NCBI GenBank assembly: GCA_025656675.1
Contig: JAHXHN010000004.1
Coordinates: 124,001-188,000, forward strand
From: Candidatus Thiodiazotropha sp. (ex Codakia rugifera)
GTDB taxonomy: Bacteria > Pseudomonadota > Gammaproteobacteria > Chromatiales > Chromatiaceae
Direction of reading: 5' to 3'
DNA: 64,000 nucleotides
The notes beneath the pieces were generated by a model. That model saw only the letters and a program-made list of their open reading frames with translations, was not told the origin of the DNA and did no database searches. Positions 20,045-43,708 of this stretch are shown here, one piece after another (position 1 is the stretch's first letter; each line of letters starts with the position of its first letter). Made by a program: the position numbers and the translations under genes.

Positions 20045-20116
20045 CACCGTGCTCCTCCAGGTCGAACAAGCCAGATGTGCGATGGATCTATGTCGTTTCG
20101 CACTTATCACCTAGAC

Positions 20117-20304: not shown

Positions 20305-21705
20305 TTAGGCATCTTCATTCATTTCACTATCGACCTCTACATCATTATGTGAGATCAATCCATACTGACGAATAAGCCGTCGCAACCTTGGCCTGGAAAC
20401 ACCCAGTATTTCGCAAGCCTGACCTTTATGCCAGCCGGTTGCTTCCAGAACACGTTTGACATGCACCCGCTCGATATCTTCAAGGCTCTGCTCAGTCAAA
20501 GGCTTATTCTTTAGGTGCTGATTTGAGTAGAGCGTTTTTTCTGCTCTCAAGGGCTCCGGAAGTTGATCCCTGGTCAAAGAGTCACCTTGGGATAAGGCAA
20601 TACTCTTCATCAAAACATTTTCCAATTCACGTACATTGCCAGGCCATTCATAGTATTTAAACGCTTCTAAAACCTCCTTGGAAATATGTGTGATATTACG
20701 ATGCAGTTCCTTATTGATACGACCCAATAGCGTCTGTATGAGATCCATCAAGTCCTCTTTGCGCTCACGCAAGGGCGGGAGATGGATATTGACAACCTGC
20801 AACCGATAAAAAAGATCTTCGCGAAAGGTCCTTTCGTTGACCTTCTCCGCAAGATCCACATTGGTAGCCGTGATCAACCTGGCATTGGTTGTTTGCGTCT
20901 GCTTGGCTCCCAGAGGAGTGAAATCCTTATATTGAATAACTCGCAAGAGCTTGGCCTGCATACTGGGTGACAGCTCGCCTACCTCATCAAGAAAGATGGT
21001 GCCACCGCGCGCTAATGAGAACTTCCCCTCTTGTCTGACCACTGCACCGGTAAAGGCACCCTTTTCATGGCCAAACATATCCGATTCAAGCAATGTCTCT
21101 ACCAATGCTGCACAGTTGACAGCGACAAACGGACCATTGGGATTTTGGCTGGACCGGTGAATGGCTCTCGCCACCAACTCTTTGCCTGTGCCCGACTCAC
21201 CAGTAATCAAAACTGTCGCCGGGCTCTTAGCGACCAAGCCGATTGTTTTGAATATCTCTTTCATGGCACGACTACGTCCAACCATGCTCAAGGTATCGCT
21301 GATATTTTCAGAGTTTGTTGAGATAAACAGGTTTTCCGATTCACCTGTAGTGGTTAACAGCCGGGAAATAGATGTATCCAGCTCATCAATATCGATCGGT
21401 TTATGAATATAATCCTCTGCACCTAGCTGCATGGCTTCAATTGTACTTTCCATATCATGAAATGCCGTAATCATGATCACATGCAAACTAGGCAGTAACT
21501 TCTTAAAGTCTGGGAGTCCTTCAAGTCCTGAACGACCGGGCATGCGTATATCAAGAATAAGCAAATCAGGATGGTATGAATCTGCTACTGCCAAACCTTC
21601 ATCAACACTACCGCAAATTTCTACATCATAATTCTGGCTTCGCAAATGAAACTGCAGGGTTCGGCAACTGGCATCATCATCGTCAACTATCAGTATCTTA
21701 CTCAT
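20305..21705 (-). CDS. NtrC-family sigma54-dependent response regulator
   Basis: The protein has 466 residues. A receiver domain carries the phospho-acceptor Asp in LLILDIRMPG (about 53). An AAA+ domain has Walker A GESGTGKE, the sigma54-contacting GAFTGA loop and Walker B TIFLDEVGE. A Fis-type DNA-binding helix-turn-helix lies at the end (GQACEILGVSRPRLRRLIRQ). It overlaps its kinase gene by 4 bases. Its position before hupS recalls HupR, but it is the last gene of the long HEAT/UspA/radical SAM operon. The sigma54 promoter of the divergent CydA-like operon is an equally good target. Confidence 0.92.
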   Translation of the reverse strand: MSKILIVDDDDASCRTLQFHLRSQNYDVEICGSVDEGLAVADSYHPDLLILDIRMPGRSGLEGLPDFKKLLPSLHVIMITAFHDMESTIEAMQLGAEDYIHKPIDIDELDTSISRLLTTTGESENLFISTNSENISDTLSMVGRSRAMKEIFKTIGLVAKSPATVLITGESGTGKELVARAIHRSSQNPNGPFVAVNCAALVETLLESDMFGHEKGAFTGAVVRQEGKFSLARGGTIFLDEVGELSPSMQAKLLRVIQYKDFTPLGAKQTQTTNARLITATNVDLAEKVNERTFREDLFYRLQVVNIHLPPLRERKEDLMDLIQTLLGRINKELHRNITHISKEVLEAFKYYEWPGNVRELENVLMKSIALSQGDSLTRDQLPEPLRAEKTLYSNQHLKNKPLTEQSLEDIERVHVKRVLEATGWHKGQACEILGVSRPRLRRLIRQYGLISHNDVEVDSEMNEDA

Positions 21706-24314
21706 GAGACACGCTCCTGTACTATCTCGGTATTCTCATCGATGGTGACTTGATGCCTGACTGGTACCACTACGGTTACACAGCTACCGGCCGGTGTATT
21801 TTCAGTGACGGATATTTTTGCCTGGTGTTGATCAAGAATACGCTTGACTATAGCCAGCCCAAGCCCTGTACCCTTTGCCCGCGTAGTAAAAAACGGTTCA
21901 AATATTTTCTCCCTTTCCGCTTTACTGATACCACATCCGTTATCACAGATCTCGATCCGGATTGCAGTACCCGCCATACCAAGCTCCAACATCACATCGA
22001 TCACTACCATTGGACTATCATTCGATTTTGTCGCCTGGGCTGCATTGGATATTAGATTGGAAAATACCTGCCTCAGCTTGGTAGCATCGGCATACAGGGT
22101 TGGTAAACCCGGATGATAGTGGGTAATCAATTTTATTTTGTATTCATCAATACTACGCTGGGAAAGACTGATCGCCATATCAATGATCTTATCGATTGTC
22201 AGCCATTCCAGTTTCAGCGCGTCTGGTCGTGAATAGGTAAGCATATCCGAGAGGATCTCTTCCATATAGCGGATCTGCTCAAGCGAAGTATCACAAAGTT
22301 CTTTTACTTCGGTATCTACACGCTTATCCAATTGCTTTCCCAGAATCTGTAGTGTCATTTTTACCGATGAGAGTGGATTACGAAGATCATGGGCAATCAT
22401 ACTTGCCATCCTGCCCATCGCAGCCAACACTTCAGAGCGTGCAAGATCTCGATGTTGTTGCTCAACTTCTGCCTCAAGCCGCTTTCTTTCAGAAATATCT
22501 TCCTTAACGGCAAGGAAGTGGGTTATTTGCCCCTCTGCGTTTCTAATGCCGGTGATAGTGGCCCCTTCCCAGTAAAGCTCACCATTTTTTCTACGATTAT
22601 GAAATTCACCACGCCACTCTCCCCCATTGATGACAGTACTCCATAGATCCTTATATTCAGCCTGGCTAGTTTCACCCGATTTCAAAATGCGTGGGTTTTG
22701 ACCTAGAACCTCTTTTGGCTCGTAGCCGGATACTTCTGTAAATTTTGGATTGACATACTCAATCAAACCTTGATCATTCGTAATAATCACAACACTTGGA
22801 CTTTGTTCCACGGCTTGGTAGAGCTTTAATAAATCTGTTTCCGCTCTCCGCTTATCGGTAATGTCTTCACCAATGCCTGTAACACCGATTACATTGTTAT
22901 CGGTGTCAAAAGAGAGTGTATTGTTCCAGGCAATTAATCTTAATCCACCGCTTTTATCCTTGACCTGATTCTCAAAGCGCAGCGGAAAGCGTTCAGGATC
23001 ATTCATCTGATGAATAATGCCACTGACTTCTGTCGTCAGCTCATCAGGAACAAACTGCCGTAACCAATTCTGACCAATAACCTCGTTTTTCTCCCATCCG
23101 GTAATCTTGAGAAAATAGTCGTTGCAGAAAGTCACTTCACCTTTCAGATTGAGCGTTACTGCAGCCAATTCGATATTCTCCAAGGTATACCGAAAACGTT
23201 GCTCATAATCTCTTTGTGCCATTGCTGCTCGACGATGTTGTTGTGAATACGCCAGCAGCCATGCCACACCCGTAACCAACAGTAACATTGCAAGATAGAG
23301 GGCATAGTGATTCTGAATAAAAAACGGAAGCGTGGCAGAGAGTTCCCGGGACGAAACACGGGAGACGATTTTCCAATAGTTTCCTGTCCCGTGTAGGATG
23401 CCTATTCTATCCTTCACCGAGACTGTGGTTCCCATTGTAGAGACAAGCGGATGAATGGTCGTAAAGGTAAACAGGCCATTCTCTGTCTGTATTTGATCCT
23501 TATCAATCTCAATAATTTTTAACCACTCACCGCTATTTTTATTCTGAAAGCGGGCATCATGCCCTAGCATAAATCCCCACTCGTCTTCATGACTCGGACT
23601 GCTCAGCCAATAACCATCATCATTCACCAGTTCAATATGGTCAGCGATATTGGCAGCGGCGCTGGTGAAGTTTTGAATCAGCCGATCACCTAAATAATTC
23701 AATAGGACAATCCCGCGTTTCTCTCCATAACTGTCAAATACCGGCGTGCCAAAACGAATAACTGGTTTTAACGGTAATTCTATCTTCCCCTCCTCCATGT
23801 TTAGATCAAATGAAGAAAGGTATATATACCCACGGTCCAGGGCCAGTGCTTCTTTAAAATAGTATCGGTTACTTTTGTTTTGCAGCTTTGGCTCTGGTAC
23901 AACTTTACTCTCACCCTGTGAGTAATTGACACGCACCACTTCCATACCTGAATTATCAATGTAACGAATCTGGTCATAGAATCCTTTGTTTTTTGCGAAC
24001 ACCTTGAACTCTTCGGAGATTCTCTGTTCTCTGGCCCAGGGTAATGCTTCCGGTAATCCCCGCCGTTCAATATGCTCCGCGAGAAACAGCAAATCACTGA
24101 CCACATCGGCAATATCCTTTTCAATCATCCGTTTGGCCAGATCGACGTTGAGCAACTCTCTCGACTCTATCGAAGAGCGCTTTGTTGTATAGAAGGTGTA
24201 GTAGTGCATGGCTCCGATAATCATCAACACCAGGCACATGGGTAAAAAAATTACCATGAAGCCCTTCAACAGCCCCAAACGGGTAACCGGTGGTGGTGGG
24301 TGTGTTATCGGCAT
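21702..24314 (-). CDS. Membrane sensor histidine kinase with two PAS domains
   Basis: The protein has 870 residues. A first membrane helix (~17-38) and a second (~340-360) bracket a large periplasmic dCache-like sensor region. A first PAS domain (~380-490) and a second (~505-620) follow, each with downstream PAC sequence. Then come HisKA with MIAHDLRNPLSS (phospho-His) and HATPase with LISNAAQA, DNGCGIS, GTGLGLAIVKRIL. It overlaps the response regulator by 4 bases and the preceding small-protein gene by 10. The periplasmic signal is unknown; PAS domains may sense redox state. Confidence 0.92.
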   Translation of the reverse strand: MPITHPPPPVTRLGLLKGFMVIFLPMCLVLMIIGAMHYYTFYTTKRSSIESRELLNVDLAKRMIEKDIADVVSDLLFLAEHIERRGLPEALPWAREQRISEEFKVFAKNKGFYDQIRYIDNSGMEVVRVNYSQGESKVVPEPKLQNKSNRYYFKEALALDRGYIYLSSFDLNMEEGKIELPLKPVIRFGTPVFDSYGEKRGIVLLNYLGDRLIQNFTSAAANIADHIELVNDDGYWLSSPSHEDEWGFMLGHDARFQNKNSGEWLKIIEIDKDQIQTENGLFTFTTIHPLVSTMGTTVSVKDRIGILHGTGNYWKIVSRVSSRELSATLPFFIQNHYALYLAMLLLVTGVAWLLAYSQQHRRAAMAQRDYEQRFRYTLENIELAAVTLNLKGEVTFCNDYFLKITGWEKNEVIGQNWLRQFVPDELTTEVSGIIHQMNDPERFPLRFENQVKDKSGGLRLIAWNNTLSFDTDNNVIGVTGIGEDITDKRRAETDLLKLYQAVEQSPSVVIITNDQGLIEYVNPKFTEVSGYEPKEVLGQNPRILKSGETSQAEYKDLWSTVINGGEWRGEFHNRRKNGELYWEGATITGIRNAEGQITHFLAVKEDISERKRLEAEVEQQHRDLARSEVLAAMGRMASMIAHDLRNPLSSVKMTLQILGKQLDKRVDTEVKELCDTSLEQIRYMEEILSDMLTYSRPDALKLEWLTIDKIIDMAISLSQRSIDEYKIKLITHYHPGLPTLYADATKLRQVFSNLISNAAQATKSNDSPMVVIDVMLELGMAGTAIRIEICDNGCGISKAEREKIFEPFFTTRAKGTGLGLAIVKRILDQHQAKISVTENTPAGSCVTVVVPVRHQVTIDENTEIVQERVS

Positions 24315-24637
24315 TGTTTTTCGATATGCTGTTGTAGTCTCAAGATATAGTCATCTTGGGCCTCATTGCTATAACGAGGCACCAGAAACATCAATCTGGC
24401 GGCGATAATATAGGGTTTGCGATCACCTTCACCTGCTGGTTGTTTTTCATTCAACACTTTTTGCACCCGCCCGATCACATCACCTGGATACTGGCAATAT
24501 CTTGGCATGGTGATATTCATGCCATACCATTGCGCTAGCATGGAGATCGATAGCAGGATCAGCAGGATAACCAGGATCAATCTGACAGGTCGAAACGGTG
24601 TCTTATTCCCTGTAAGTGAATGTTCTCTACTCTCCAT
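24305..24637 (-). CDS. Small membrane-anchored protein, unknown
   Basis: A 110-aa protein with one membrane helix (residues ~20-36, LILVILLILLSISMLAQWYG), then a periplasmic domain with two cysteines (RYCQYPGDVI and the final EKQCR). The conserved-looking part is PYIIAARLMFLVPRYSNEAQDDY. No family is recognised. It lies between the PPO-like gene and the kinase, overlapping the kinase by 10 bases. It may be a periplasmic partner of the sensor. Confidence 0.75.
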   Translation of the reverse strand: MESREHSLTGNKTPFRPVRLILVILLILLSISMLAQWYGMNITMPRYCQYPGDVIGRVQKVLNEKQPAGEGDRKPYIIAARLMFLVPRYSNEAQDDYILRLQQHIEKQCR

Positions 24638-24649
24638 CGGTACTGCTAG

Positions 24650-26056
24650 TTACCTAGCCAATGCAAGCGATGGCTCCTGCGCTAAAAATCGCTCTCCTGA
24701 TTTAAGTTTAACAGCTATTTTTTGAGCCACCTGTCGACCTTCAAATATTCTTTCTCTTACTGAAACACCCCGTTGGTAATTCCCGTTGAGGTACAGACCT
24801 GGCAATACCCTCAAACGGTTTTCAATCATCTCTAAGCGTGCCTGGTATTGGCCGTGATAGAGCGGTAATCCCATGCTGTGCCGATCAACCCTGACATAAT
24901 TGGGTGATCCTGATATACCGAGCAGTGGTCTTAGTCCAGACAGGACAATCTCTGTTAACTTTTCATCGCTATGGTCTATCTGTTCTGGATGGCGGACACC
25001 ACCCAGATAAGTTGTCAGCAACATTTTGTCACTTGGTGCTCTTTCCGGGAATAGTCGGCTCATCCAGAGGTTACCGTTGAATGCCATTTCATTTTCACGA
25101 GAAACAAGAAAGCCGGTGCCATCCAATGGATGATTTATTCTGCTGCTTTCGAGTCCAACGTGTAAAACAACAACCGGTGCATACTCAATCTCAGACAGCA
25201 GCTGTCCCAAGGGCGGGTCTTCCGGTGTCAAAAGATGGGAACAGATGTCAGCCGGGGCGCTCATCACCAGGTGGGGCACAGATATCTGATGTTGCATACC
25301 TCCTTTACTGGCTTTTACCTGCCAATAGTCTTGAACTTTAGTCACAGATGCCACACGCATACCGCAACGCAACGTCACTCCAGGTGTGCGTGCCAATTCC
25401 TCTATAAGCTCAGTCATCCCACCTGCAAAAGAGAAGGTATCCGCTTTGTTTGCCCTACGACGCTTCAGCAGACGATTGATCAGCATACCCATGGTCAGGC
25501 TGCCATAGCGTTGTTCCAACAGCTTGAGTCTGGGGAGTACCGAACGAGCCTCGGCCAAATCCGGATCGGATGCCAGGGTTCCCGAAACAAACGGGTCCAT
25601 TGCGGTGTCGAGAATTTCCTTACCCAGGCGGCGTTCAATAAATGACGAGACAGTCTCATCATCTTGATGCCCCCTCGGCATCAAGATTTCAGTCATTAGA
25701 CGCAGTTTGGCAGAGAAGCTCCAGAGTGGTGACGCGATCAGTGCGGGCATTAGCATTGGCACTTGGGCCAATTCACCTCTGTGCACCAGATAGCGGTTAA
25801 GGGACTGATCCCGCACTCGTTTACGATGGGTTAATCCGGTCTGCTGAATCAGCTGATCAATTTCATTTCTGAAATTCACCAGCAATCCGGCAGCCCGTTC
25901 CGTGGTATAGCCAGCCTCGCGGGTAGTGCGAATTTTCCCACCGGGTCGCTCATCCGCCTCCCAGACTTCAACAGTGATCCCCTGTTGTGCCAGCCACCAG
26001 GCTGTTGAGAGACCCGATATACCGCCACCGACAATCAGTACCGAAGTCTCACTCAT
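24650..26056 (-). CDS. Protoporphyrinogen/coproporphyrinogen oxidase-like flavoprotein
   Basis: A 468-aa FAD amine-oxidase-superfamily protein of the HemY/CgoX group. The dinucleotide fold is VLIVGGGISGLSTAWWLAQQ, with E-x-DERPGGKIRT, a central DPFVSGTLASDPDLAEARSVLP segment typical of PPO enzymes, and a C-terminal GLYLNGNYQRGVSV FAD-closing motif. HemY/CgoX oxidise (copro/proto)porphyrinogen in haem synthesis. Here the gene overlaps a radical SAM gene by 4 bases inside a redox operon, so a dedicated tetrapyrrole modification is more likely than housekeeping haem synthesis. That is inference. Confidence 0.82.
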   Translation of the reverse strand: MSETSVLIVGGGISGLSTAWWLAQQGITVEVWEADERPGGKIRTTREAGYTTERAAGLLVNFRNEIDQLIQQTGLTHRKRVRDQSLNRYLVHRGELAQVPMLMPALIASPLWSFSAKLRLMTEILMPRGHQDDETVSSFIERRLGKEILDTAMDPFVSGTLASDPDLAEARSVLPRLKLLEQRYGSLTMGMLINRLLKRRRANKADTFSFAGGMTELIEELARTPGVTLRCGMRVASVTKVQDYWQVKASKGGMQHQISVPHLVMSAPADICSHLLTPEDPPLGQLLSEIEYAPVVVLHVGLESSRINHPLDGTGFLVSRENEMAFNGNLWMSRLFPERAPSDKMLLTTYLGGVRHPEQIDHSDEKLTEIVLSGLRPLLGISGSPNYVRVDRHSMGLPLYHGQYQARLEMIENRLRVLPGLYLNGNYQRGVSVRERIFEGRQVAQKIAVKLKSGERFLAQEPSLALAR

Positions 26057-28092
26057 TTTCGCCGCAACTCCGCCTTCATCTTTTCGAGCAGTTCCCTATC
26101 TAACAGACCGAGTCCTCCGCCATCCGGTGCCTGTTTGGATTCCACATAGTGTCTAATCTCTGCAAAACGTTTCTCCGCCTGACTATTTTCCTTCAATCGC
26201 GGTACACGCTGTTTGGCAATGGTAAAGGCATCGAAATTCAGCTCTTGCATACCAAAACCCTTCATTCGGCGTACCGCTTTCATCATTGCCCGGTTACGAA
26301 ATCGGGTCAGGTCATTCGAAGTGATACGCGCCAGTCCCTCACGACGCGCACTGAATTCAGCCGCTTTTTTTATTCCCCCACGGACAAACTCGGGTGCCGA
26401 CTCAACACGCTCAAGTGCATCACTCTCCCACGCCACACCAGCTAATCCGGTCTGTAGAATATTTTTTACATCTTCAACGGAAACAACAATGGCATCCCGT
26501 CGCTTTGCCTCTCTTTCGGCAGCGGCTTCCATGGTCGGTTTAACAAACAGTTGAACCTGTGACGGTCGATCTTGTAGAGACGTCTGCAGAAGGATTTCGG
26601 CTGACTGCTCCCATGGAAGATTACGGCCAGTTGCATCCTCATCCTCCAGACGATGGAGGAGTTTGATATTCACTTCCAGACGACCTTCATCGCGTGCAAC
26701 ATCTTCAGCAACTGCGAAGACCCCTTCACGCAGAAAACCAGGCAGTTCATCCAGATAGGCTTTTGCCTCCTGGGTCCAGGCCAAACCACTGGTTGAAAAC
26801 TCCGCGAATGTCTCTGATTCCTCACCGTTGAAGGAGATGGATCGCGTACCTGGAAACTTATCGCCAAAACGTTTTGCAGCCAAAGTGGCCATATGCTCTG
26901 TGGTGACAGTTGGTTCACCCAGTTCGCGAACATAGGACTCGGCACGTTTACGCACCATTTTACGTAGGAAACCCGGTACACGTAACAGACGTTGCTCCGC
27001 TTCCGCACTCCAGGCAACAACCCCGTCAGGCTTATCATCAAGTGGTTCGATAATTGATTCACCCGAGGGATAGTGATTACACCAGGGATCGGCATCCATC
27101 AAGGTACCCCCCATGGCTAGCGGTCTTGCCCGACAGCCGCCACACAGCTTCTGAAATTCACACTGACCACACTTACCCTTGAGTTCAGGATTGCGAAGAA
27201 GCTCAAAAGTTGGGGTTTGATCCCATATCTCCCAGAAGTTGCGCTCCCGGATCGAGCCTTCCTCATCCGGAATATAGGGACAGGCTGTAACAGCCCCTTC
27301 CGGCGTAACCCGACAATAGTGAATACCAGCCAGGCAACCACCACCCTCATAACCCTGAGCCCGGGTCATAGTGGATTCGGGATTTGTCTGGTAGGCCACC
27401 CGTTTGAAATGGGGAGCGCAACGGGCTCGCACAATCAGGTCAGATGTCTCTTCCTGGGCCCGTACCAATTGGGAAAGCACCTGCTCATATCGGGCAGGCG
27501 TAATATCCGACATCGACTCTCCCCTGCCGGTGCAGACCAAAAAAAAGATATTCAACACATGTGCGCCAACCGCTTTCGCAAAGTCGATCATCGACTCGAC
27601 TTCATGGGCATTCTGTTCTGTGACCGAGAAGTGAACTTGAAACGGGAGGCACTGCTTGCGACAGTGGTCCATACCGGCAAGGGTCTTTTCCCAACTGCCT
27701 GAACAGCCTCGAAAGGTGTCATGAGTCAGCGGATCAAGCGAGTCCAGACTGATCCCCATTCCCATGGTACCTGCCTGTTTCAGTGTCGCGACCCTATCTT
27801 CATCGAGTAACACACCATTTGTACCCACAACCATCGACAGTCCCAATCCATTGCCATGTGCAATCAACTGCTCCAGGTCTCTACGCAACAGCGGTTCTCC
27901 ACCGGTTAAAACCACCATCGTTTCTTGGCTGCGCGAAGCGATCTCATTCAGAAGTTGCTTGACCTCTTCCGTATTCAGCTCATCATTTCCACCACCCTGA
28001 CGTGTTTCTGCATCCATATAGCAGTGTGAGCAGGCAAGATTACATCGACGTGTCAGGTTAACGGCTAGCAGAAACAGATCGTTGCCGCTCAT
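26053..28092 (-). CDS. Radical SAM/SPASM protein with C-terminal PCP_red-like repeats
   Basis: The protein has 679 residues. The N-terminal radical SAM domain has the cluster motif CNLACSHC (CxxxCxxC, residues ~17-24) and TGGEPLLR. A SPASM-type auxiliary cluster region follows (CLAGIHYC, ACPYIPDEEG, CGQCEFQKLCGGC). The rest (~350-679) holds at least three ~45-residue segments starting with Trp and containing P-x-F-(V/L)-R (WSAEAEQRLLRVPGFLRKM, WTQEAKAYLDELPGFLREG, WESDALERVESAPEFVRGG). They resemble the PCP_red domain of light-independent protochlorophyllide reductase. NirJ/AhbD-type haem-modifying radical SAM enzymes are the nearest comparison. Confidence 0.85.
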   Translation of the reverse strand: MSGNDLFLLAVNLTRRCNLACSHCYMDAETRQGGGNDELNTEEVKQLLNEIASRSQETMVVLTGGEPLLRRDLEQLIAHGNGLGLSMVVGTNGVLLDEDRVATLKQAGTMGMGISLDSLDPLTHDTFRGCSGSWEKTLAGMDHCRKQCLPFQVHFSVTEQNAHEVESMIDFAKAVGAHVLNIFFLVCTGRGESMSDITPARYEQVLSQLVRAQEETSDLIVRARCAPHFKRVAYQTNPESTMTRAQGYEGGGCLAGIHYCRVTPEGAVTACPYIPDEEGSIRERNFWEIWDQTPTFELLRNPELKGKCGQCEFQKLCGGCRARPLAMGGTLMDADPWCNHYPSGESIIEPLDDKPDGVVAWSAEAEQRLLRVPGFLRKMVRKRAESYVRELGEPTVTTEHMATLAAKRFGDKFPGTRSISFNGEESETFAEFSTSGLAWTQEAKAYLDELPGFLREGVFAVAEDVARDEGRLEVNIKLLHRLEDEDATGRNLPWEQSAEILLQTSLQDRPSQVQLFVKPTMEAAAEREAKRRDAIVVSVEDVKNILQTGLAGVAWESDALERVESAPEFVRGGIKKAAEFSARREGLARITSNDLTRFRNRAMMKAVRRMKGFGMQELNFDAFTIAKQRVPRLKENSQAEKRFAEIRHYVESKQAPDGGGLGLLDRELLEKMKAELRRK

Positions 28093-30368: not shown

Positions 30369-30427
30369 GGTAAATGCCTCTCTCGATCAGACCGGGATGA
30401 GCATCAGCTCATCCCGCTTGGGTCGGA

Positions 30428-30559
30428 TTACTGCAAAAACCAGTAGCCAACGATGAACCCGATCACCAACATATTGATGATACCGGCGAGCAAAGCCATA
30501 TAATCCATCAGGCTCAGTCGACGCACTCTCTTATCGGTCATGGCAGGATTAGAATTCAT
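30428..30559 (-). CDS. 43-aa single-span membrane peptide
   Basis: A short frame begins with ATG at 30559, four bases from the stop of the preceding cupredoxin-like gene, and encodes MNSNPAMTDKRVRRLSLMDY followed by one hydrophobic helix ending GYWFLQ. A basic N terminus and a C-terminal span predict an N-in membrane peptide. It is too short for usual gene callers. Tight spacing in the operon and membrane-like content support it. It may be a small subunit of the CydA-like complex, comparable in kind to CydX. Confidence 0.72.
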   Translation of the reverse strand: MNSNPAMTDKRVRRLSLMDYMALLAGIINMLVIGFIVGYWFLQ

Positions 30560-30562
30560 CGC

Positions 30563-31306
30563 TTACTTGAATGTGAAATCGACGCTTGCAGTACCGCCTG
30601 TATCAACCTTCACCTTTGCCTTCTGATTCTTCAGCATGCCATGCCATGCTTTGATGGTGTATGAACCAGGCGGTACATCGTTGATACTGAAACTACCGTC
30701 TTCAGCCACCATAGCGAAATAAGGATTCTTGGCTACAAAAACAAAACCATGCATAAAATCATGGGCATCACACTCCACCTTAATGGCGGGCCCTTTTTTC
30801 ATTTTAATGGTATTGGTAACAGTACCTGGGTCAGGCTGACTGATATTTGTCAGGGTCTTTTTCGGACCCTTGGCATCACCCCGAATCAATTCATAAGTAT
30901 GGATATTATGCAAAACAGGATCAGTGTTAATCGCTGATAGTTTGCTTTTGTTTTTCATGACCTGCAGAAAAGGGCTGAACTCACACCCCTTTTGATTAAT
31001 GCTGGCATCGCCAACATCTGATTGAAAGGGTTTTCCCTCCTTCACTTTTACCAGATAGACAACCGTATCCATCAAGTGACCGTTATTGACACGTACGTAA
31101 TCGATTTCTCTCTTTCCTGTGCCGCAAACATCGTTGTCTTTTGTGATGCTGTATACTTTTGGAGCCTTATCCTTACCGGCAAATTTCACACTGCCTGTAA
31201 TAGTACCCCCGTTGCTCACCGCACCCTCTTTATAGGCAGCGGCATAACCCACAGACGACAAGGTACAAAGACTTGCCAGGCTGAGGTAAACGAGTAACTT
31301 CTTCAT
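30563..31306 (-). CDS. Secreted cupredoxin-like protein
   Basis: A 247-aa protein with a signal peptide (LLVYLSLASLCTLSSVGYAAA). Copper-type ligands can be picked out: NTDPVLHNIHTYEL (His) and, near residue 180, VECDAHDFMHGFV (Cys-x2-His-x2-Met order). The C terminus is a beta domain of carboxypeptidase-regulatory type (DGSFSINDVPPGSYTIKAWHG). It is probably a periplasmic electron carrier or copper-binding protein. It is the second gene of the operon after the HEAT protein and is transcribed divergently from the cytochrome operon that contains SCO1. Confidence 0.8.
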   Translation of the reverse strand: MKKLLVYLSLASLCTLSSVGYAAAYKEGAVSNGGTITGSVKFAGKDKAPKVYSITKDNDVCGTGKREIDYVRVNNGHLMDTVVYLVKVKEGKPFQSDVGDASINQKGCEFSPFLQVMKNKSKLSAINTDPVLHNIHTYELIRGDAKGPKKTLTNISQPDPGTVTNTIKMKKGPAIKVECDAHDFMHGFVFVAKNPYFAMVAEDGSFSINDVPPGSYTIKAWHGMLKNQKAKVKVDTGGTASVDFTFK

Positions 31307-31335
31307 ACATTATTCTCCTGGTTTCGATCCTGCTG

Positions 31336-33816: not shown

Positions 33817-34364
33817 TGTTTCTTTGTTTCTCTTATTTGATACCGGGTCAATCACTGTAAGCAGTTTCTGTACCAGCTCGAAAAAAAATGTTTTGCCCTA
33901 GATCCAAGACGTTAGCCTGCCTGCTCCCCAATAAAATTGAATGAATCGTTCAAAGACCCGATGACAGTTGATGGATGAAGAACGATATGTTCAACGACTG
34001 TAGAATCTTTTCAAACCACCCCGTTATTCATAATGGGTATTGCCACTTGAATACCGGGGATTGAATTGAACATTTAGTTTATTGTGAAGCGCCATCTTGA
34101 ACAGATCGTTCAGGGTCATTTGGGAAATAATTAGATCTGATGACTTGTCATCGATCCTATCGATCATCCTCTGTTGATTCTATTTGATCTTTGTTAACTA
34201 CAGAGCCCTACTACAGTTTTTCACTCAAGATAAACAGAGATCAATTTCAGTATCACCACCCAATCACCAATCCCCTGAACGTGGCCCGAATATTGCCTTT
34301 CTTGCTGGACTAGACGCCTCAAAACAATAGGTCTGGAATAACAGAAGGCGAACTGGAGAGAGGT
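33817..34364. promoter_or_regulatory. Divergent regulatory region between HEAT operon and CydA-like operon
   Basis: No gene is present. Visible dyads include GATGAC-TT-GTCATC (34139-34152), adjacent ATCGAT-CCT-ATCGAT (about 34151-34165) and GGTATT-N8-AATACC (about 34037-34056). The first lies about 140 bases upstream of the sigma54 element at 34282-34297, a normal enhancer distance. I found no sigma54 element for the HEAT direction. Confidence 0.5.
34282..34297 (+). promoter_or_regulatory. sigma54 (-24/-12) promoter of the CydA-like operon
   Basis: TGGCCCGAATATTGCC fits TGGCACG-N4-TTGCW, with GG and GC separated by exactly 10 bases. Transcription would start near 34309, about 55 bases before the first micropeptide gene. 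An NtrC-type regulator is encoded in the divergent operon (20305-21705), giving a plausible local circuit. Confidence 0.75.
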
Positions 34365-34520
34365 ATGAATAACACGCCCGATGATGATCAAATCAAATCA
34401 CCCGAACCTAAAAGTCGCTCCTGGGGATCCAAGCTCTTTATTGCCGTACTGGTTGTAATCCTGGCCTTTTTTTATTGGTTGCTGATCTACTCAGGTGGTG
34501 TCACTGTCCATCACGGCTAA
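34365..34520 (+). CDS. 51-aa membrane peptide, first gene of CydA-like operon
   Basis: An ATG at 34365 after a strong GGAGAGAGG opens a 51-codon frame: a polar N terminus (MNNTPDDDQIKSPEPKSRSW), one membrane helix (LFIAVLVVILAFFYWLLIY), and a short end TVHHG. No family is recognised. It is followed by a second micropeptide and the CydA-like gene on the same strand, which makes a small-subunit role reasonable. Confidence 0.75.
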   Translation: MNNTPDDDQIKSPEPKSRSWGSKLFIAVLVVILAFFYWLLIYSGGVTVHHG

Positions 34521-34536
34521 TACAAGGCGATCTTCT

Positions 34537-34689
34537 ATGCAAACAAACGATAACAACAGCGTGCTCTCCATGCTGATTTCGATCATAGTCTCTTTTGTGA
34601 TCGCACTGACTTTCTTTTATGGCCTTGATCACCTCGTGATGAGTATGCAGGGACTACCTCTGAATCCTGACTTGTCACCCGCCGGTTGA
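34537..34689 (+). CDS. 50-aa membrane peptide, second gene of CydA-like operon
   Basis: The ATG at 34537 is 16 bases after the previous stop. The product is MQTNDNNSVLSMLISIIVSF then a continued single hydrophobic span and a periplasmic-looking tail GLPLNPDLSPAG. The same frame extends upstream to 34495 but that part overlaps the previous gene. It ends 16 bases before the CydA-like gene. Unknown family; likely a membrane micro-subunit or assembly factor. Confidence 0.72.
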   Translation: MQTNDNNSVLSMLISIIVSFVIALTFFYGLDHLVMSMQGLPLNPDLSPAG

Positions 34690-34705
34690 CCGGTGTGCAC
34701 GGATA

Positions 34706-36610
34706 ATGGTCATGAATGATAAACGCCCTTCAAATCAGCCTGAACGACCATCCACACAGATACGATGGGGACGCCTATTGTGGTTCGCTTTAAGCATGCT
34801 GTTGCTTGTATCCGGATTGGCGCAAGCTGCGGAACAAGACACTACCCTTGACCGAATCACCCCCATTGGGATGGTGCAGGCGACAGGTGAGCCACTGACT
34901 ACAAAAACCACACCCGACATAGCAGATGTCGATACAGCAGAACCCATAGCTGCCCCAAGACCATCAAGGAGCGACTACCCTGACATTGGTGTCAGCAGCC
35001 GTGCCATTGTCTGGATACTTGCTCAACTGCATCTGTTTTTTGCCGCCTTGGTGTTGGCTGTCCCTCTGTTTGTATTGACGATTGAACTGCTGGGTGTTTA
35101 CACCGGCGATGACCGCTATGACAACATGGCCTATGAGTTCATGAAAATCAGCCTCACCGGGTTTTCCATCACCGCAATTTTTGGTGGTTCACTGGCATTG
35201 GCGCTGTTTTTACTCTATCCCGATTTCATGGGTTATATGATGCATGTATTCGGTGCTCAGGTTTTGGTGTATGCGATTCTGTTTTTTCTTGAGAGTTTTT
35301 TCCTCTACACCTACTACTACGGCTGGAACGCTTTCCGTTATGGCAACCTGAAGTGGGTGCATCTGTCGCTGGGTCTGATGCTGAACGCAGCCGGTCTTAC
35401 CATCATGGTAGTAGCCAACTCCTGGGCCACATTCATGATGGCACCCTCCGGAGTCAACGAAGTCGGTGCTGTGGTAGGCAATATCTGGGAGATCATGAAA
35501 GGCCCTCTGTGGAACCCGATTAATCTGCATCGTTTTATTGCCAATATTGCGTTTGGTGGCGCCGTGGTCGGCGCCTATGCGGCATTCAAATTTCTCAGTA
35601 CCACCGATCCTGATAAAAGAGCCCACTATGACTGGATGGGTTACACCTCAAACTTCATCGCTATACTTGCCTTCCTGCCACTCCCCTTCGCCGGCTACTG
35701 GCTGATGGCTGAGATCTATGCCTACTCCCAGCAGATGGGCATCACCGCCATGGGCGGTATTCTCGCCTGGCTGTTTATTGTGCAGGCGGTATTGATCGGC
35801 ACTATTCTGCTTGCCGGTAACTTTTATCTCTGGGCGGGAATGTCACGTACAGATGGGTCCGACCGTTACAAAGGCCTGATCAAGTATATTGCAGTGACGC
35901 TGGTGGTTTGCTTTCTGATCTGGGTAACCCCTCACACCCTGATCCTCTCCGCTTCTGAGATCTCTCTGCTGGGTGGCAGCCACCACCATATCCTCGGCCC
36001 ATTGGGTATCATGCCGGCCAAGAATGTGGCCGTTAATCTGATGCTGGTGGTCACCTTTCTCTCCTTCCAGCTCTATCGCCGGTCAGACAAAGTGGCCACT
36101 GTGAGTTGGGCACCAATGGGTAATGCTCTGATGGTGGCCATCTATGTTGTGGCCATCGTCAATATCATCTTTCTGGGTGTCTATTACGGCTACTTCACCA
36201 ACACCGTCTACAAAGTGGGTTCATCTGTCGCGCAGGTAGCCTCAACCCTCGTTGTGATCATTGCAGGCATCGTTATCGATACCCTGATGTTCAGAAATGC
36301 CAAGACACTCCCCTCTCACTGGGGGCGGATTCCCGACCGTGCACAATACGCTCTTTTCGCTTTGCCGATTGCTTTTACCTGGCTGATGGGACTGATGGGT
36401 TATGTCCGATCTTCAGTCAAGACCCACTGGCATGTCTATACGGTGATGAAAGACAACTCACCTGATAATTTTATACCGACCATTGCCTATGCCGGCAATA
36501 TGATCACTATTGTCACCGTGTTGTTCCTGCTCTGCGTACTGTTCATGTTCTGGGTGGCTAATCTGAGCTCCACTCGACAGGCCAAACCTGCAGCGGGAGG
36601 TGCTGTATGA
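34706..36610 (+). CDS. CydA-like (cytochrome bd superfamily) membrane protein, atypical
   Basis: A 634-aa protein with a signal-like N-terminal helix (~22-41), a periplasmic linker of about 50 residues, then about 13 membrane helices. The first half aligns with cytochrome bd subunit I. His109 (LAQLHLFF) matches the haem-b595 His19, FFLES (Glu196) matches Glu107, and His275 (INLHRFIANIAFGG) matches His186. The residue matching Glu99 is not acidic (Val188/Tyr189), and the quinol-binding loop with its Lys/Glu is not seen. Such relatives are grouped with cytochrome c partners rather than quinol. It is cotranscribed with two cytochromes c. No CydB gene is present. Confidence 0.82.
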   Translation: MVMNDKRPSNQPERPSTQIRWGRLLWFALSMLLLVSGLAQAAEQDTTLDRITPIGMVQATGEPLTTKTTPDIADVDTAEPIAAPRPSRSDYPDIGVSSRAIVWILAQLHLFFAALVLAVPLFVLTIELLGVYTGDDRYDNMAYEFMKISLTGFSITAIFGGSLALALFLLYPDFMGYMMHVFGAQVLVYAILFFLESFFLYTYYYGWNAFRYGNLKWVHLSLGLMLNAAGLTIMVVANSWATFMMAPSGVNEVGAVVGNIWEIMKGPLWNPINLHRFIANIAFGGAVVGAYAAFKFLSTTDPDKRAHYDWMGYTSNFIAILAFLPLPFAGYWLMAEIYAYSQQMGITAMGGILAWLFIVQAVLIGTILLAGNFYLWAGMSRTDGSDRYKGLIKYIAVTLVVCFLIWVTPHTLILSASEISLLGGSHHHILGPLGIMPAKNVAVNLMLVVTFLSFQLYRRSDKVATVSWAPMGNALMVAIYVVAIVNIIFLGVYYGYFTNTVYKVGSSVAQVASTLVVIIAGIVIDTLMFRNAKTLPSHWGRIPDRAQYALFALPIAFTWLMGLMGYVRSSVKTHWHVYTVMKDNSPDNFIPTIAYAGNMITIVTVLFLLCVLFMFWVANLSSTRQAKPAAGGAV

Positions 36611-37440
36611 AGGTATTGTTGAAGACGCTCGGATTCAGTTTAGCGCTGACACTGCTCTTCACCTTTGTCACCTACCTGCTGCCCCAGGTGGAAGGCGAGG
36701 CTCCGGTTGAAAAAGTGGTGGATCTAAGCTCCCTCACCATGGATGATTTTATCGCCCTGGGAGAGGATCTTTTCAACACCAAGGGTACCTGCACACTCTG
36801 TCATAAACCCGCCCCACTCGGCCGCGCACCGGATATTCAGGGTATGAATACGGTTGCCTTGAGCAATGAACGACTCGCTGATGAACGCTATCAGGGAGAG
36901 GCCAAGGATGCAGCAGGCTATATACTTGAATCGATGCTTGATCCGAGCCGTTACGTGGTTGCCACATGGGGTAAAAAAGGCACAAACGATAGCGAATCGC
37001 CAATGCCTGCCATCGATAAACCTCCGATAGAACTTTCTGCGATTGAGATGGATGCCATCATCGCTTACCTGCAAGCCAAAGATGGCAATGATGTCACTGT
37101 GGTTCTGCCGTCACCGGAGGATGCAGCATCAGTAGCCAGTACAGATAAGAAAGCCTCTGATGCCACCGCGCTGCCAGCACCGGCAACAACTGTCGAAGAG
37201 GCACTCGGCAAGTATGCCTGTACTGCCTGCCATGCAATGGACAGTAGTGACACACTCGTCGGACCGGGACTGGTCGATATCGGCACACGTCTGAGTATGG
37301 AGGATATCCGGCAAAGTATTGTCGATCCTAATGCTGTTATAGCTGAAGGCTTTGCTGCCGCCATGCCAGCCGATTTCGCAACCAAGATGACTGTCAAAGA
37401 GCTGGATATGATCGTTGCCTATCTGGTGGAGAAGAAATAA
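36607..37440 (+). CDS. Membrane-anchored dihaem cytochrome c
   Basis: A 277-aa protein with an N-terminal signal anchor (LGFSLALTLLFTFVTYLL). Two cytochrome c domains follow, each with one CxxCH (CTLCH near residue 64, CTACH near residue 205) and a later Met ligand candidate (SPMPAIDKPP, AAMPADF). A Ser/Ala/Pro-rich linker joins them. It overlaps the CydA-like gene by 4 bases (ATGA) and the next cytochrome by one base. It would pass electrons between the large cytochrome and the membrane haem protein at the periplasmic face. Confidence 0.88.
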   Translation: MKVLLKTLGFSLALTLLFTFVTYLLPQVEGEAPVEKVVDLSSLTMDDFIALGEDLFNTKGTCTLCHKPAPLGRAPDIQGMNTVALSNERLADERYQGEAKDAAGYILESMLDPSRYVVATWGKKGTNDSESPMPAIDKPPIELSAIEMDAIIAYLQAKDGNDVTVVLPSPEDAASVASTDKKASDATALPAPATTVEEALGKYACTACHAMDSSDTLVGPGLVDIGTRLSMEDIRQSIVDPNAVIAEGFAAAMPADFATKMTVKELDMIVAYLVEKK

Positions 37441-39854
37441 TGAAAGGCTTTAAGATTCCGGCATTCTGGCAAGCGGTTATTGTTGCTATTGTCGCTTATC
37501 TTGTGTTTGCCAATGCCTTCCCGCCTGTACTGCCAAAGACCCTGATGGTGCAGTACATGATAATAACTTTGATTGGTATTTTACTCTATTTTGCTTTTGA
37601 CGATGAGAAATGGAGGGAATTCCAGTCACCGATTCTTGCCACCCTGCGTGATGACAACAAGGCAGTTGTTCGATGGGCCTTTCTTATCATCATCCCACTG
37701 ATCGTTGGCTACACCACATACGGCAGCGTAAAGCCTAGCAACGATGCTCCGGTAGAACTCAGACAGGTACACCCGGCTCCACCTGCATCATTGAAAATAT
37801 TTGGCAATACCTATGATCTGGCAACACTTGAAAATCCAGTCCGAGAGGAGATACTGACGACCCTGATGGAAGATGAGCAGGCAGGTTGGGAGAAGTATGA
37901 TGAGGTTGTCCTGGCCGGTCGTGACATCTATTACCAGAACTGCTTCTACTGTCATGGTGACCTGCTCGATGGCCAAGGGCACTATGGACAGGGATTCAAT
38001 CCACAACCCATCAACTTCCAGGATCCAACCATTATCCCGCAACTTCAGGAAGCCTTTCTTTTTTGGCGCATCGCCACGGGTGGGCCCGGACTACCTAAAG
38101 AGGGCACACCCTGGAATTCTGCCATGCCAGTCTGGCATGAGTTGTTGTCCGAAGAAGAGATCTGGAACGTCATCACCTTTATCTTTGACTACAACGGCCA
38201 GGTACCCCGTATTTGGGATCCTGAGGTATCCAGGCGGGTAACCGGCATGAAGGAACAAGTACTGGCAAAACGCAAAAGTATGCAGGGTAAGGATCTCTAT
38301 AAATTCCGTTGCGAAGTCTGTCATGGTGAAACCGGCGCCGGTGATGGCATTGCCGTGGATCTCATGTACCCCAAACCACGGGATTTCTCCCTTGGCCTGT
38401 TTAAATACAAGACATCGCCCGGCACTCTGCTACCCCGAGATGAGGATCTGTTCAATACCATCAAACAGGGTCTACCCGGTACCGCCATGCCGGGCTGGGG
38501 AATCAAAGGTCGGGCACTGTTGACTGATGATCAGATCCGCAGTCTGGTGCCCGTTATCAAAGGCTTTGATATCACCCAGGCATGGCCACCGGAATCTGCG
38601 GAAGAGGAAGATTTCGACGATGATGGCTTCTACACCAAAACCGATTATCAAATCATCTCCGACATTGAACCGCTGAATGGTCAGATCCCCTACAGCGACG
38701 AGTCAGTCGCCAGGGGAAAAGAGGCATTCAAAAAATCATGTAAAGAGTGTCATGGTGTAGCAGGCCGTGGCAATATCACCTCCGGTAAAAAACTTGAAGA
38801 TGACTGGGGCAACCGTATCTGGCCAAGGGATCTGACCAAGCCCTGGACCTGGCGTGCGACGCAATCCTCGGCCTTGGCTGAACAAGAACAGGATGAAACG
38901 ATCAAGGCAATCTATACTCGCCTGTCGATCGGCATACCCGGCACACCTATGCCTGCACACCGAGCCATTGAAGAGGGCAATAAAGATCCTGTTACGCTTG
39001 AGGATCGTTGGCATATCGCCAACTATGTCTACAGCCTGCGCTTAAACACGACTCAACCGGAGGATGGTCCGGTGGTCACCGGTCTAAAAGTGGAAGATTC
39101 ACTACCCGATTCAATCAGCGACCATCGCTGGGAACAGGCGCCAGCCACTACCCTGCATCTGGTGCCGAACATTATTAAGGATGAGCGCTTGTTCACACCG
39201 TTGACTGATGCCATCACAGTACGCGTACTCTACAATCAGAACGAGATTGCCTTCCTTCTCGAGATAAACGACCGGACCGAAAGCCGGCCCGGTATCGATT
39301 ATTTTACCGATCTGCAGGATGAAAATCTTGAGATGTACCCGGATGCTGTCGCCATTCAGTTTCCCTATCAGGATGATTACATGTCGGCACCCATGGTAGA
39401 GAAACCGCTCTATCGACATGGCGACAACAAACACAACACCACGATCTGGTACTGGAATGCAGGCGGGGTTGATCCCGCCAGAGAACCGGCAGGGGCACTC
39501 CTCGATGGCAGTGGTCCGGACAAAAAGCTGGCAATGCGGATGGATGACAACAGTCTGTCTGCAAATGGCACCTGGAAAGAAGGTCAGTGGCGGATTATGA
39601 TGAAACGTCCCCGTAATCCCGGTAATGGCGATGTGGTCTTTAGCGAAGGTACCTTTATTCCCATATCTTTCGCCAATTTGGATGGCAGCAACGGAGAGAT
39701 GGGTTCCAAACATACCCTTAGCACCTGGTATTGGCTTGTTCTGCCGCCTGAAATCAATATGATAAAGGTCTATGGACTGCCGGCAGGTATCACGCTGTTG
39801 GTGTTTATGCTTGGGTTGATGCTCGTGAGCAATCAACGTAGAAAGAACCACTGA
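37440..39854 (+). CDS. Large triheme cytochrome c with ethylbenzene-dehydrogenase-like haem domain
   Basis: The protein has 804 residues. Three N-terminal membrane helices lie within residues ~1-100. Three cytochrome c domains carry CFYCH, CEVCH and CKECH. A C-terminal beta domain (~560-770) resembles the haem-binding gamma subunit fold of ethylbenzene dehydrogenase/DMSO reductase-type enzymes, with Met/Lys-type ligand candidates around LAMRMDDN. A last membrane helix ends the protein. The combination makes a multi-haem electron wire docked to the membrane. It starts in TAATG overlap with the previous gene, so the three proteins are probably one complex. Confidence 0.82.
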   Translation: MKGFKIPAFWQAVIVAIVAYLVFANAFPPVLPKTLMVQYMIITLIGILLYFAFDDEKWREFQSPILATLRDDNKAVVRWAFLIIIPLIVGYTTYGSVKPSNDAPVELRQVHPAPPASLKIFGNTYDLATLENPVREEILTTLMEDEQAGWEKYDEVVLAGRDIYYQNCFYCHGDLLDGQGHYGQGFNPQPINFQDPTIIPQLQEAFLFWRIATGGPGLPKEGTPWNSAMPVWHELLSEEEIWNVITFIFDYNGQVPRIWDPEVSRRVTGMKEQVLAKRKSMQGKDLYKFRCEVCHGETGAGDGIAVDLMYPKPRDFSLGLFKYKTSPGTLLPRDEDLFNTIKQGLPGTAMPGWGIKGRALLTDDQIRSLVPVIKGFDITQAWPPESAEEEDFDDDGFYTKTDYQIISDIEPLNGQIPYSDESVARGKEAFKKSCKECHGVAGRGNITSGKKLEDDWGNRIWPRDLTKPWTWRATQSSALAEQEQDETIKAIYTRLSIGIPGTPMPAHRAIEEGNKDPVTLEDRWHIANYVYSLRLNTTQPEDGPVVTGLKVEDSLPDSISDHRWEQAPATTLHLVPNIIKDERLFTPLTDAITVRVLYNQNEIAFLLEINDRTESRPGIDYFTDLQDENLEMYPDAVAIQFPYQDDYMSAPMVEKPLYRHGDNKHNTTIWYWNAGGVDPAREPAGALLDGSGPDKKLAMRMDDNSLSANGTWKEGQWRIMMKRPRNPGNGDVVFSEGTFIPISFANLDGSNGEMGSKHTLSTWYWLVLPPEINMIKVYGLPAGITLLVFMLGLMLVSNQRRKNH

Positions 39855-39860
39855 GGCACT

Positions 39861-40454
39861 ATGTTTCGGATAACCCTGTTCGTCTTTACACTACTCATCA
39901 CATTATCATCCACGGCATCGGATGAGGTTTCTCAGCAAGATGAGATTCTTGATCTCAGTGGCACACAACTGGGTGGAGATTTCACCTTGTATTCGAGTCA
40001 AGGTGAGTTCTCGTTGGAGCAACTGAGGGGGAAAGTGGTTCTACTCTACTTCGGTTATACCAAGTGCCCTGATGTCTGCCCTACCTCCCTCGCATTTCTG
40101 ACCCAGGCCCTCAACGAGCTGAGCGATGATGAATTGAAAGCTGTCCAAGGCGTTTTTATCAGTGTCGATCCTAAACGGGACAATTTTCAAGTACTGGATG
40201 ACTATGTCAGCTATTTTCACCCCAACCTGCTGGGTGTAACCGGTAGTGACAGTGAGATTGCGAAGGTTGCAAAACTCTATGGTGCACAATACTACGAAGT
40301 GGCCCTTGAGGAATCTGCCTTCGGCTACGCAGTCAATCACTCAGCGGTAACCTACCTGATTACACCTGAGGGGGAACTGCGCTTCGTATTCCCTCATCAA
40401 ACACCCTCATCCGTCATCCTGGAAGCCATCCAATACGTGCTGTCGGGGAATTGA
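39861..40454 (+). CDS. SCO1/SenC family copper chaperone-like protein
   Basis: The protein has 197 residues. A signal peptide (LFVFTLLITLSSTAS) precedes a thioredoxin-like SCO domain. The copper site is CPDVCPTS (CxxxC) near residue 71 and the conserved distal His lies in YAVNHSAVTYL. SCO proteins deliver copper or reduce thiols for oxidase assembly. It follows the large cytochrome by 6 bases. Since CydA relatives do not use copper, its client may be the cupredoxin-like protein in the divergent operon. Confidence 0.9.
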   Translation: MFRITLFVFTLLITLSSTASDEVSQQDEILDLSGTQLGGDFTLYSSQGEFSLEQLRGKVVLLYFGYTKCPDVCPTSLAFLTQALNELSDDELKAVQGVFISVDPKRDNFQVLDDYVSYFHPNLLGVTGSDSEIAKVAKLYGAQYYEVALEESAFGYAVNHSAVTYLITPEGELRFVFPHQTPSSVILEAIQYVLSGN

Positions 40455-41861: not shown

Positions 41862-41875
41862 TGGAGGTAATGACC

Positions 41876-43695: not shown

Positions 43696-43708
43696 GAGGA
43701 GATAAACA

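Follow-up and report, generated by a model that had tools for sequence, protein, structure and literature searches.

Oxidases of the OR-N type, a class reportedly defined together with OR-C in the 2021 study of Murali, are thought to be terminal oxidases of Nitrospira and Nitrospina, which are important nitrite oxidisers. In Nitrospina, Nitrospira and Kuenenia the protein was described as an enigmatic bd-like oxidase without quinol-binding residues, encoded in a region with genes for a diheme cytochrome c, NxrC and a cupredoxin (PMC3578206). The CydA proteins of Nitrospinota are mostly classed as OR-N1 or OR-N2 and are probably cytochrome c oxidising (PMC10839748); O2 reduction is favoured for the OR-N relatives in print, also without proof (PMC10839748, PMC12342949), and in these accounts experimental confirmation of subunits and function is still lacking (PMC10839748, PMC12342949, PMC3578206). 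Here we describe a related locus in a 64,000-nucleotide stretch of DNA (the window; contig JAHXHN010000004.1, positions 124,001 to 188,000) from the 4.65-Mb genome of a Candidatus Thiodiazotropha, a sulfur-oxidising symbiont of lucinid clams, in which an operon for a CydA-like protein and its cytochrome c partners is divergent from an operon encoding a radical SAM protein, a protoporphyrinogen-oxidase (PPO) family flavoprotein and a Usp-PCP_red protein. On balance, we favour the view that the locus encodes an O2 reductase, fed by cytochrome c or a blue copper protein, that is built on an OR-N-type CydA and has its own tetrapyrrole maturation machinery. A preliminary description had regarded the combination as one without a characterised counterpart. 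Since a bd-like oxidase with neighbouring genes for diheme c, cupredoxin and NxrC had been reported in 2013 (PMC3578206), the claim holds for the biochemistry only; in the open-access literature searched, we found no description of a maturation set dedicated to the oxidase or of the logic of its promoters.

Every open reading frame (ORF) listed in the preliminary description is present in its place, and Pfam and NCBIfam bear out the domains guessed there, finding receiver and sigma-54 activator, kinase, PPO, radical SAM, Usp, PCP_red, HEAT, PF01654, cytochrome, EB_dh and SCO1 domains. The CydA-like membrane protein (34706..36610, plus strand) is the only PF01654 protein in the genome; its match (E 1.3e-22) covers only positions 2-251 of the 418 in the profile, and the assignment is also supported by PDB profile matches and an AlphaFold (AF2) model (mean pLDDT 81, pTM 0.81), the ten best Foldseek matches of which in the PDB were all CydA chains. 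Taking H19, E99 and E107 to be the heme ligands of E. coli CydA, the equivalents of H19 and E107 are H109 and E196, both invariant in 71/71 CydA-like sequences; H219, H275, H307, H427 and H576 are likewise invariant, and H410 is conserved in 70 of the 71. A profile of the family recovered CydA in 72/77 Nitrospinota genomes, many near 700 bits, and in a quick joint tree (SH-aLRT support only, two E. coli sequences as outgroup, OR-C sequences left out) the window protein fell among the Nitrospinota CydAs. This close kinship suggests that it belongs to the OR-N branch of the cytochrome bd superfamily, which is known but biochemically uncharacterised. One conserved loop, KTHWHVYT (residues 572-579, with W575 and H576 invariant), is predicted at pLDDT below 50, which may mean that a cofactor or partner gives it its shape. 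The gene was found in 7/22 genomes of the host genus and is thus accessory, and the CydA homologue had no match in the plasmid collection. Lucinid symbionts are described as having cbb3 and aa3 oxidases, and a single Thiodiazotropha-like lineage among them as having a 'cytochrome bd ubiquinol oxidase' (PMC6712303).

The company that this CydA keeps is conserved. Among 56 relatives, the CydA-like gene was found in 11 and the radical SAM gene (at least 543 bits) in exactly these 11 (Fisher 7e-12), the best radical SAM match in the remaining 45 being about 143 bits at most and perhaps NirJ. A set of 321 evenly drawn Gammaproteobacteria, which overlaps with these relatives, gave the CydA-like gene in 13 genomes and the radical SAM gene in 11, all of them among the 13 and none among the 308 without CydA (Fisher 1e-18); the two genes share one contig in 10 of the 11 genomes with both. 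In G032 they lie on different contigs, and both have been kept. In Nitrospinota, CydA was found in 72 of 77 genomes; 58 of the 72, and none of the other five, also have a radical SAM match that extends into the PCP_red tail (Fisher 6e-4), and the two genes are not adjacent in the regions examined. Rarity of joint occurrence, which would have spoken against the preliminary description, is therefore not what was found. In the class searches, at most five or three first-look candidates were scored per genome, so that single absences there are less sure; the radical SAM search of the 56 relatives scored nearly all. The E-value limit for CydA was 1e-8 in Nitrospinota and 1e-30 in the class, fragments included (in G295 of the class, CydA is present only as two fragments), and some of the Nitrospinota radical SAM matches are partial.

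The neighbourhood was followed in the best 80 of at least 566 relatives, with a tblastn threshold of 60 bits. The diheme cytochrome c was detected in 78 of these loci, the EB_dh/triheme cytochrome in 74, the cupredoxin in 42, Usp in 41, HEAT in 39, radical SAM and PPO in 35 each, the 110-residue protein m110 in 25, the AioA-like gene in 23, SCO1 in 11, the kinase in six and the regulator in four; many loci stop short of the far end of the minus operon, and a radical SAM, Usp or PPO gene is present in 24 of the 34 loci with full flanks. For a search of whole genomes for the radical SAM gene, 49 loci were chosen, 37 from the 45 that have no radical SAM match in place and 12 from the 35 that do; with L096 left out, 48 genomes were covered. 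A match of at least 480 bits was present in 39, with internal stops in four (G080, G083, G086, G092); four others had a piece that was broken or at a contig edge (G059, G072, G081, G093), and five had no match (G060, G061, G071, G075, G077). The link between the CydA and radical SAM genes is real, the composition of the locus is conserved and functionally linked, and the recurrence of the gene set in many bacteria goes beyond chance. That the operons are neighbours through chance or shared ancestry only would fit the long syntenic blocks common to close relatives and the fact that the Fisher tests ignore relatedness, and is nonetheless highly improbable in view of the identical presence pattern in the 56 relatives, the co-occurrence without adjacency in G032 and Nitrospinota, the gene orders rearranged across classes and the shared promoter region.

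The enzymes that travel with CydA point to tetrapyrroles. The radical SAM/SPASM protein (26053..28092, minus strand), identified by Pfam, NCBIfam and its cysteine motifs, carries three PCP_red domains. Its best NCBIfam models are NirJ2 (TIGR04055; 316 bits, cut-off 500) and AhbD (TIGR04545; 303.9 bits, cut-off 500), whereas NirJ (TIGR04051) gives 158 bits against a cut-off of 515; five other members of the family scanned with TIGR04545 scored 271-347 bits. Its cysteines form an invariant CX3CX2C motif and a SPASM series that, counted in the window protein, reads CX27CX17CX36CX2CX5CX2CX17C, with all eight SPASM cysteines invariant in 13 aligned sequences; this spacing fits the full AhbD pattern, CX20-33CX17CX36-37CX2CX5CX2CX17-35C, which is associated with two auxiliary clusters (PMC10452713). 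Some genomes with the CydA-linked radical SAM gene also have a separate AhbD (L191 in G404, L194 in G082) or NirJ (L200 in G090) gene that passes its own cut-off. PCP_red was present in 5/5 CydA-linked radical SAM proteins scanned and in 0/2 AhbDs, and in a quick tree with a very long outgroup branch the AhbC, AhbD and NirJ paralogues grouped (SH-aLRT 89) apart from the CydA-linked family. Identification as AhbD or NirJ was rejected because the cut-offs were not reached and separate paralogues were present. SPASM enzymes in general often mature small peptides, several micropeptides are encoded in the cluster and the conserved CydA-like loop at 572-579 is predicted at low confidence, so that the substrate could be a polypeptide, either a micropeptide or the CydA-like protein itself, instead of a tetrapyrrole; the models for peptide maturases reached at most 160 bits (GeoRSP 160, WgkB 132, PqqE 126; 252 for TIGR04053, of unknown function), well below NirJ2 and AhbD, the partners are PCP_red and PPO, and the 43-residue peptide was matched in Gammaproteobacteria only, short queries being easily missed. 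We regard such a substrate as improbable.

Next to the radical SAM gene, the PPO-family flavoprotein (24650..26056, minus strand), which has an amine-oxidase/PPO fold in Pfam, passes TIGR00562 with 259.6 bits (cut-off 97.85), as do 6/6 cluster orthologues scanned (177-270 bits). PPO-family enzymes oxidise porphyrinogens. On the other side, the Usp-PCP_red protein (28089..30368, minus strand) combines a double Usp with four PCP_red domains according to Pfam, and both domain types are present in 12/12 aligned orthologues. The PCP_red domain matches structures of subunit B of DPOR, in which we take this region to lie over the substrate. A photosynthetic context was rejected, as BchB models match the Usp protein over PCP_red only. 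Otherwise PCP_red is rare, being detected in 20/321 Gammaproteobacteria, 11 of which are the genomes with both CydA and radical SAM genes; judged by ORF size, five others are likely BchB/BchN phototrophs, and the last four have ORFs of 72-209 residues, one below the cut-off. Three genomes in which the CydA search found nothing (G293, G344, G394) have PCP_red ORFs of 72-96 residues.

Because the AhbD/NirJ-like radical SAM protein, PPO and PCP_red are all linked to tetrapyrroles, tetrapyrrole maturation is the leading reading. AhbD acts on porphyrin propionates and in some organisms completes the coproporphyrin route (PMC7242693), and NirJ also acts on propionates (PMC12505453). Given these activities and that of PPO, a propionate-modified heme is the natural prediction. 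In the cytoplasm, the radical SAM protein and the PPO-family flavoenzyme would change the side chains of a porphyrin or iron porphyrin, its oxidation state, or both, with the PCP_red domains of the radical SAM and Usp proteins holding the porphyrin; the HEAT and small membrane proteins may aid its insertion or the assembly of the complex. Electrons would enter through the diheme and EB_dh/triheme cytochromes, the blue copper protein or both, and pass to the hemes of the CydA-like protein and on to O2. Of the earlier proposal that the radical SAM and PPO-like enzymes make or insert a modified tetrapyrrole for CydA, the maturation part thus stands as the leading reading, and the modified product and its delivery to CydA as predictions. 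The product is plausibly, and probably, a non-standard heme. Only tentatively do we propose the wider idea, that a new side-chain-modified heme made by PCP_red-tagged AhbD-like radical SAM and PPO-family enzymes is used in OR-N bd-like oxidases from sulfur to nitrite oxidisers.

An association cannot name the product, and PPO with an AhbD-like enzyme could just give plain heme b by a coproporphyrin-type route. The pair would then serve under low O2 or stress, with PPO acting on coproporphyrinogen, the housekeeping ferrochelatase inserting iron and the AhbD-like enzyme decarboxylating coproheme. This would agree with the role of AhbD at the end of the coproporphyrin route in some organisms (PMC7242693), with the AhbD-type SPASM cysteine pattern, with the membership of the PPO family and with the window genome, in which HemJ was not found, no search being aimed at HemG, so that the cluster PPO may be the general PPO there. 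Ferrochelatase (HemH) was found in 15/16 genomes checked and HemJ above the cut-off in 11/16, so that most of them have an ordinary heme b route besides, and G404 and G082 also hold a true AhbD. The scores well under the AhbD cut-off, the coexistence with AhbD and NirJ, the lack of PCP_red in the two AhbDs scanned and the strict tie to the OR-N CydA argue against mere heme b supply, and we consider it an unlikely explanation, if the most credible of the alternatives to a dedicated maturation system. A further heme link may exist in several Alphaproteobacteria, where genes judged by eye to be ferrochelatase-like and Crp/FNR-like lie upstream of the CydA operon (L079 7155-8910 and L084 7265-9013, minus strand).

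Other observations also weigh against an O2 reductase with a dedicated heme. We know of no OR-N enzyme with a known cofactor. The position of E. coli E99 is occupied by Y189, an invariant tyrosine in the CydA-like sequences, and the C-terminal half, after residue 350 or so, can be aligned neither to PF01654 nor to E. coli CydA; the O2 chemistry of bd oxidases therefore cannot be transferred to this protein. The Foldseek superpositions are loose, with TM-scores by target of up to 0.57 and root-mean-square deviations of 17-25 A across the top ten. Two of the 13 CydA-positive Gammaproteobacteria (G175 and G275) have no PCP_red and, under a permissive threshold, no radical SAM match of more than 75 bits. 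The G175 locus (L160; C348 1-8813) has m110, cupredoxin, HEAT and CydA genes, and none for Usp, radical SAM or PPO lies between them; as the cupredoxin gene stands directly next to m110 on one contig, the absence appears to be genuine and the locus a real exception. In Nitrospinota, the radical SAM gene is missing from 14/72 CydA-positive genomes, which are drafts (G093 has a broken copy), and PPO and Usp genes were not seen beside the radical SAM genes in the regions examined. As a natural exception, L160 could show if the maturation set is dispensable for the oxidase.

The two operons also share a conserved control region. The 31 of the 80 loci, all other than the window itself, in which the HEAT gene and cydA are divergent were searched for an element within 150 nt with at most one mismatch to TGGYAYN5TTGCW, which we take to be the -24/-12 consensus of sigma-54. 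Such an element faces the HEAT gene in 31/31 loci and cydA in 29/31, and both sites occur in 29/31, with 0.08 loci expected from Markov-simulated sequences and 0.45 from random windows of the same loci. A TGAAC-N5-GTTCA dyad is exact in 20/31 loci (expected 0) and present with at most one mismatch in 29/31 (expected 1.0), random windows giving 4.0 for dyads; these counts come from mutually related loci, with position limits chosen after the window sites had been seen and a dyad first spotted by eye in the window. A stricter scan matched 13/31 loci, against 0.36 in shuffles, and gave no match in the window. At two mismatches, the pattern occurs 45 times in the whole window against 39.6 expected, no better than chance, so that only the comparative test at one mismatch is informative. 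In the window, the sigma-54-like element facing the minus operon (33860..33875, minus strand) has one mismatch and that facing the cydA operon (34282..34297, plus strand) is weak, with two; between them (33938..34112) are four dyad-like repeats, one exact and three with one mismatch, starting at 33938, 33979, 34067 and 34098.

The minus operon encodes an NtrC-type response regulator with receiver, sigma-54 activator and Fis helix-turn-helix domains (20305..21705; Pfam, with orthologues in other clusters) and a membrane histidine kinase with a PF21623 sensor domain and two PAS domains (21702..24314; Pfam). The dyads are candidate enhancer sites of this regulator, and the conserved sites and dyads, together with its location, indicate joint control of the oxidase and maturation genes, which strengthens an earlier suggestion that the kinase/regulator pair controls the system. 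On detecting its signal, the sensor kinase would act with the regulator to turn on both operons together through the sigma-54 promoters and the shared enhancer dyads. Another match to TGGYAYN5TTGCW, TGGCATGACTGTTGCT at 20117-20132 (minus strand), is directly upstream of [NiFe] hydrogenase genes hyaA/hyaB (17172-20110); a [NiFe] hydrogenase also borders the cluster in L015, L018 and L020.

From the regulator to the HEAT gene, the intergenic gaps of the minus operon are -4, -10, 12, -4, -4, 59, 3 and 29 nt, which bears out the description of these genes as mostly overlapping or abutting, and the plus operon has gaps of -26, 16, -4, -1 and 6 nt between its first micropeptide and SCO1. The plus operon continues after CydA with a diheme cytochrome c that has a hydrophobic segment at its N-terminus (36607..37440), a triheme cytochrome c fused to a heme b-type, NxrC-like EB_dh domain (37440..39854), both identified by Pfam and by their two and three CXXCH motifs, respectively, and an SCO1/SenC copper chaperone (39861..40454; Pfam). 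The protein called cupredoxin-like in the preliminary description (30563..31306, minus strand) has no cupredoxin match in Pfam, but CXXHXXM, which we take to be a type-1 copper motif, is present in this protein and in 35/35 clustered orthologues. It is best described as an exported blue-copper-like protein with an upstream histidine and, in Pfam, a C-terminal carboxypeptidase-regulatory-like region. The HEAT-repeat protein (31336..33855, minus strand; Pfam, NCBIfam) is weakly similar to HEAT proteins that are bilin lyases, and the promoter position suggests that its true start is probably near 33816.

Four small proteins, a 43-residue membrane peptide (30428..30559) and m110 (24305..24637) on the minus strand and membrane micropeptides of 51 (34365..34520) and 64 residues (34495..34689, the true start perhaps being 34537) on the plus strand, each have one strongly hydrophobic segment and matching ORFs in other loci. 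In several Alphaproteobacteria, m110 shares the strand of cydA and lies upstream of it. Nine of the 80 loci (L101-L108, L110) encode two full-length CydA paralogues, each followed by separate diheme c and EB_dh genes, and tblastn shows a further second CydA place in L096 and L100; a heteromeric CydAA' form is possible in the two-paralogue loci. In many of the nine, the EB_dh/triheme gene is apparently split in two.

Four further co-oriented genes, for two MauG-like proteins, a Rieske protein and an AioA/IdrA-like molybdoenzyme (40755..46402, plus strand; Pfam and neighbourhood counts), start 300 nt past the plus operon. In a 2021 study, neighbouring peroxidases serve to tell iodate reductases from arsenite oxidases (PMC8692401), and this MauG-MauG-Rieske-AioA/IdrA-like operon is a probable iodate reductase by its gene content. 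Among the 25 plasmid matches listed for the AioA-like protein, a Vibrio homologue is 66% identical, two others are 48% identical and the remaining 22 are 26-29% identical and mostly annotated as arsenate reductase (azurin); the order along transcription, P-P-B-A, is the same in the Vibrio plasmid homologue. In three Alphaproteobacteria (L073/L207, L081/L209, L091/L210), the order CydA, cytochromes, MauG, MauG, Rieske, AioA-like, HEAT, cupredoxin, Usp, radical SAM and PPO makes the module part of one long array, and in L214 (Thiotrichaceae) it is embedded in the CydA system with the order rearranged. Also near the cluster (53273-58370, minus strand) lie more respiratory genes, for a second molybdopterin oxidoreductase (840 residues) and a NapC/NirT-plus-multiheme cytochrome (545 residues).

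With the module between the oxidase and maturation genes in those three Alphaproteobacteria and the AioA/IdrA-like gene in 23/80 loci and 17/34 full-flank loci, the CydA-like complex might be no terminal oxidase at all, and instead a conduit for electrons between membrane and periplasm that, for instance, feeds the iodate-reductase-like enzyme or serves reverse electron flow; an ACIII-like role was raised for Nitrospina by Luecker in 2013 (PMC3578206). The module is missing from many loci, however, none of the Nitrospinota loci examined showed its AioA-like gene, no TGAAC-N5-GTTCA dyad with at most one mismatch is found upstream of the module in the window and papers on the OR-N relatives lean to O2 reduction, unproven as it is (PMC10839748, PMC12342949). 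We therefore judge a pure conduit rather unlikely and retain O2 as the presumed acceptor.

If OR-N oxidases do use such a modified heme, it would be a third kind dedicated to oxidases, beside heme a and heme d, and a little-known relative of bd oxidases that travels, in sulfur oxidisers and their relatives, with its own heme-remodelling-type enzymes may point to a heme type not yet described. Dedicated maturation would also account for any failure of OR-N oxidases to be expressed in ordinary hosts. The gene set co-occurring in Pseudomonadota and Nitrospinota provides a handle on these oxidases, as it names likely maturation enzymes, predicts a non-standard heme and offers a candidate regulatory circuit, and carriers such as Sedimenticola hydrogenitrophicus (L039, L071) make the system approachable at the bench.

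Compared with known systems, the window module resembles the iodate reductase idrABP1P2 in bringing together two di-heme peroxidases, a Rieske protein and an AioA-like subunit, and differs in its order, P-P-B-A, and in its place beside a CydA system. The PCP_red domain is shared with DPOR subunit B (BchB/ChlB), whereas in the window it is fused to radical SAM and Usp proteins in which no nitrogenase-like catalytic domain was found. With canonical CydAB, the CydA-like protein shares the N-terminal core, the equivalents of H19 and E107 and a bd-like fold; no CydB is among the Pfam matches of the window operon, no search being aimed at it, and Y189 in place of E99, the unalignable C-terminal half and the c-type cytochromes in the operon set it apart. 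The CydAA' oxidases of the OR-N type in Nitrospinota and Nitrospirales are similar in the N-terminal core, the many transmembrane helices, the strong resemblance to Nitrospinota CydAs, the c-type partners and the nearby blue-copper-like and NxrC-like (EB_dh) proteins. The window genome has a single PF01654 protein in contrast to their CydA/CydA' pair, its EB_dh and triheme cytochrome c are fused, and its adjacent radical SAM, PPO, Usp-PCP_red, HEAT and kinase/regulator genes go unmentioned in the published passages on those oxidases (PMC3578206, PMC10839748, PMC12342949). Finally, the radical SAM protein has the core of AhbD and NirJ and the complete SPASM cysteine motif of AhbD, but it scores under the cut-offs of TIGR04545, TIGR04055 and TIGR04051, carries C-terminal PCP_red domains and is tied to the OR-N CydA.

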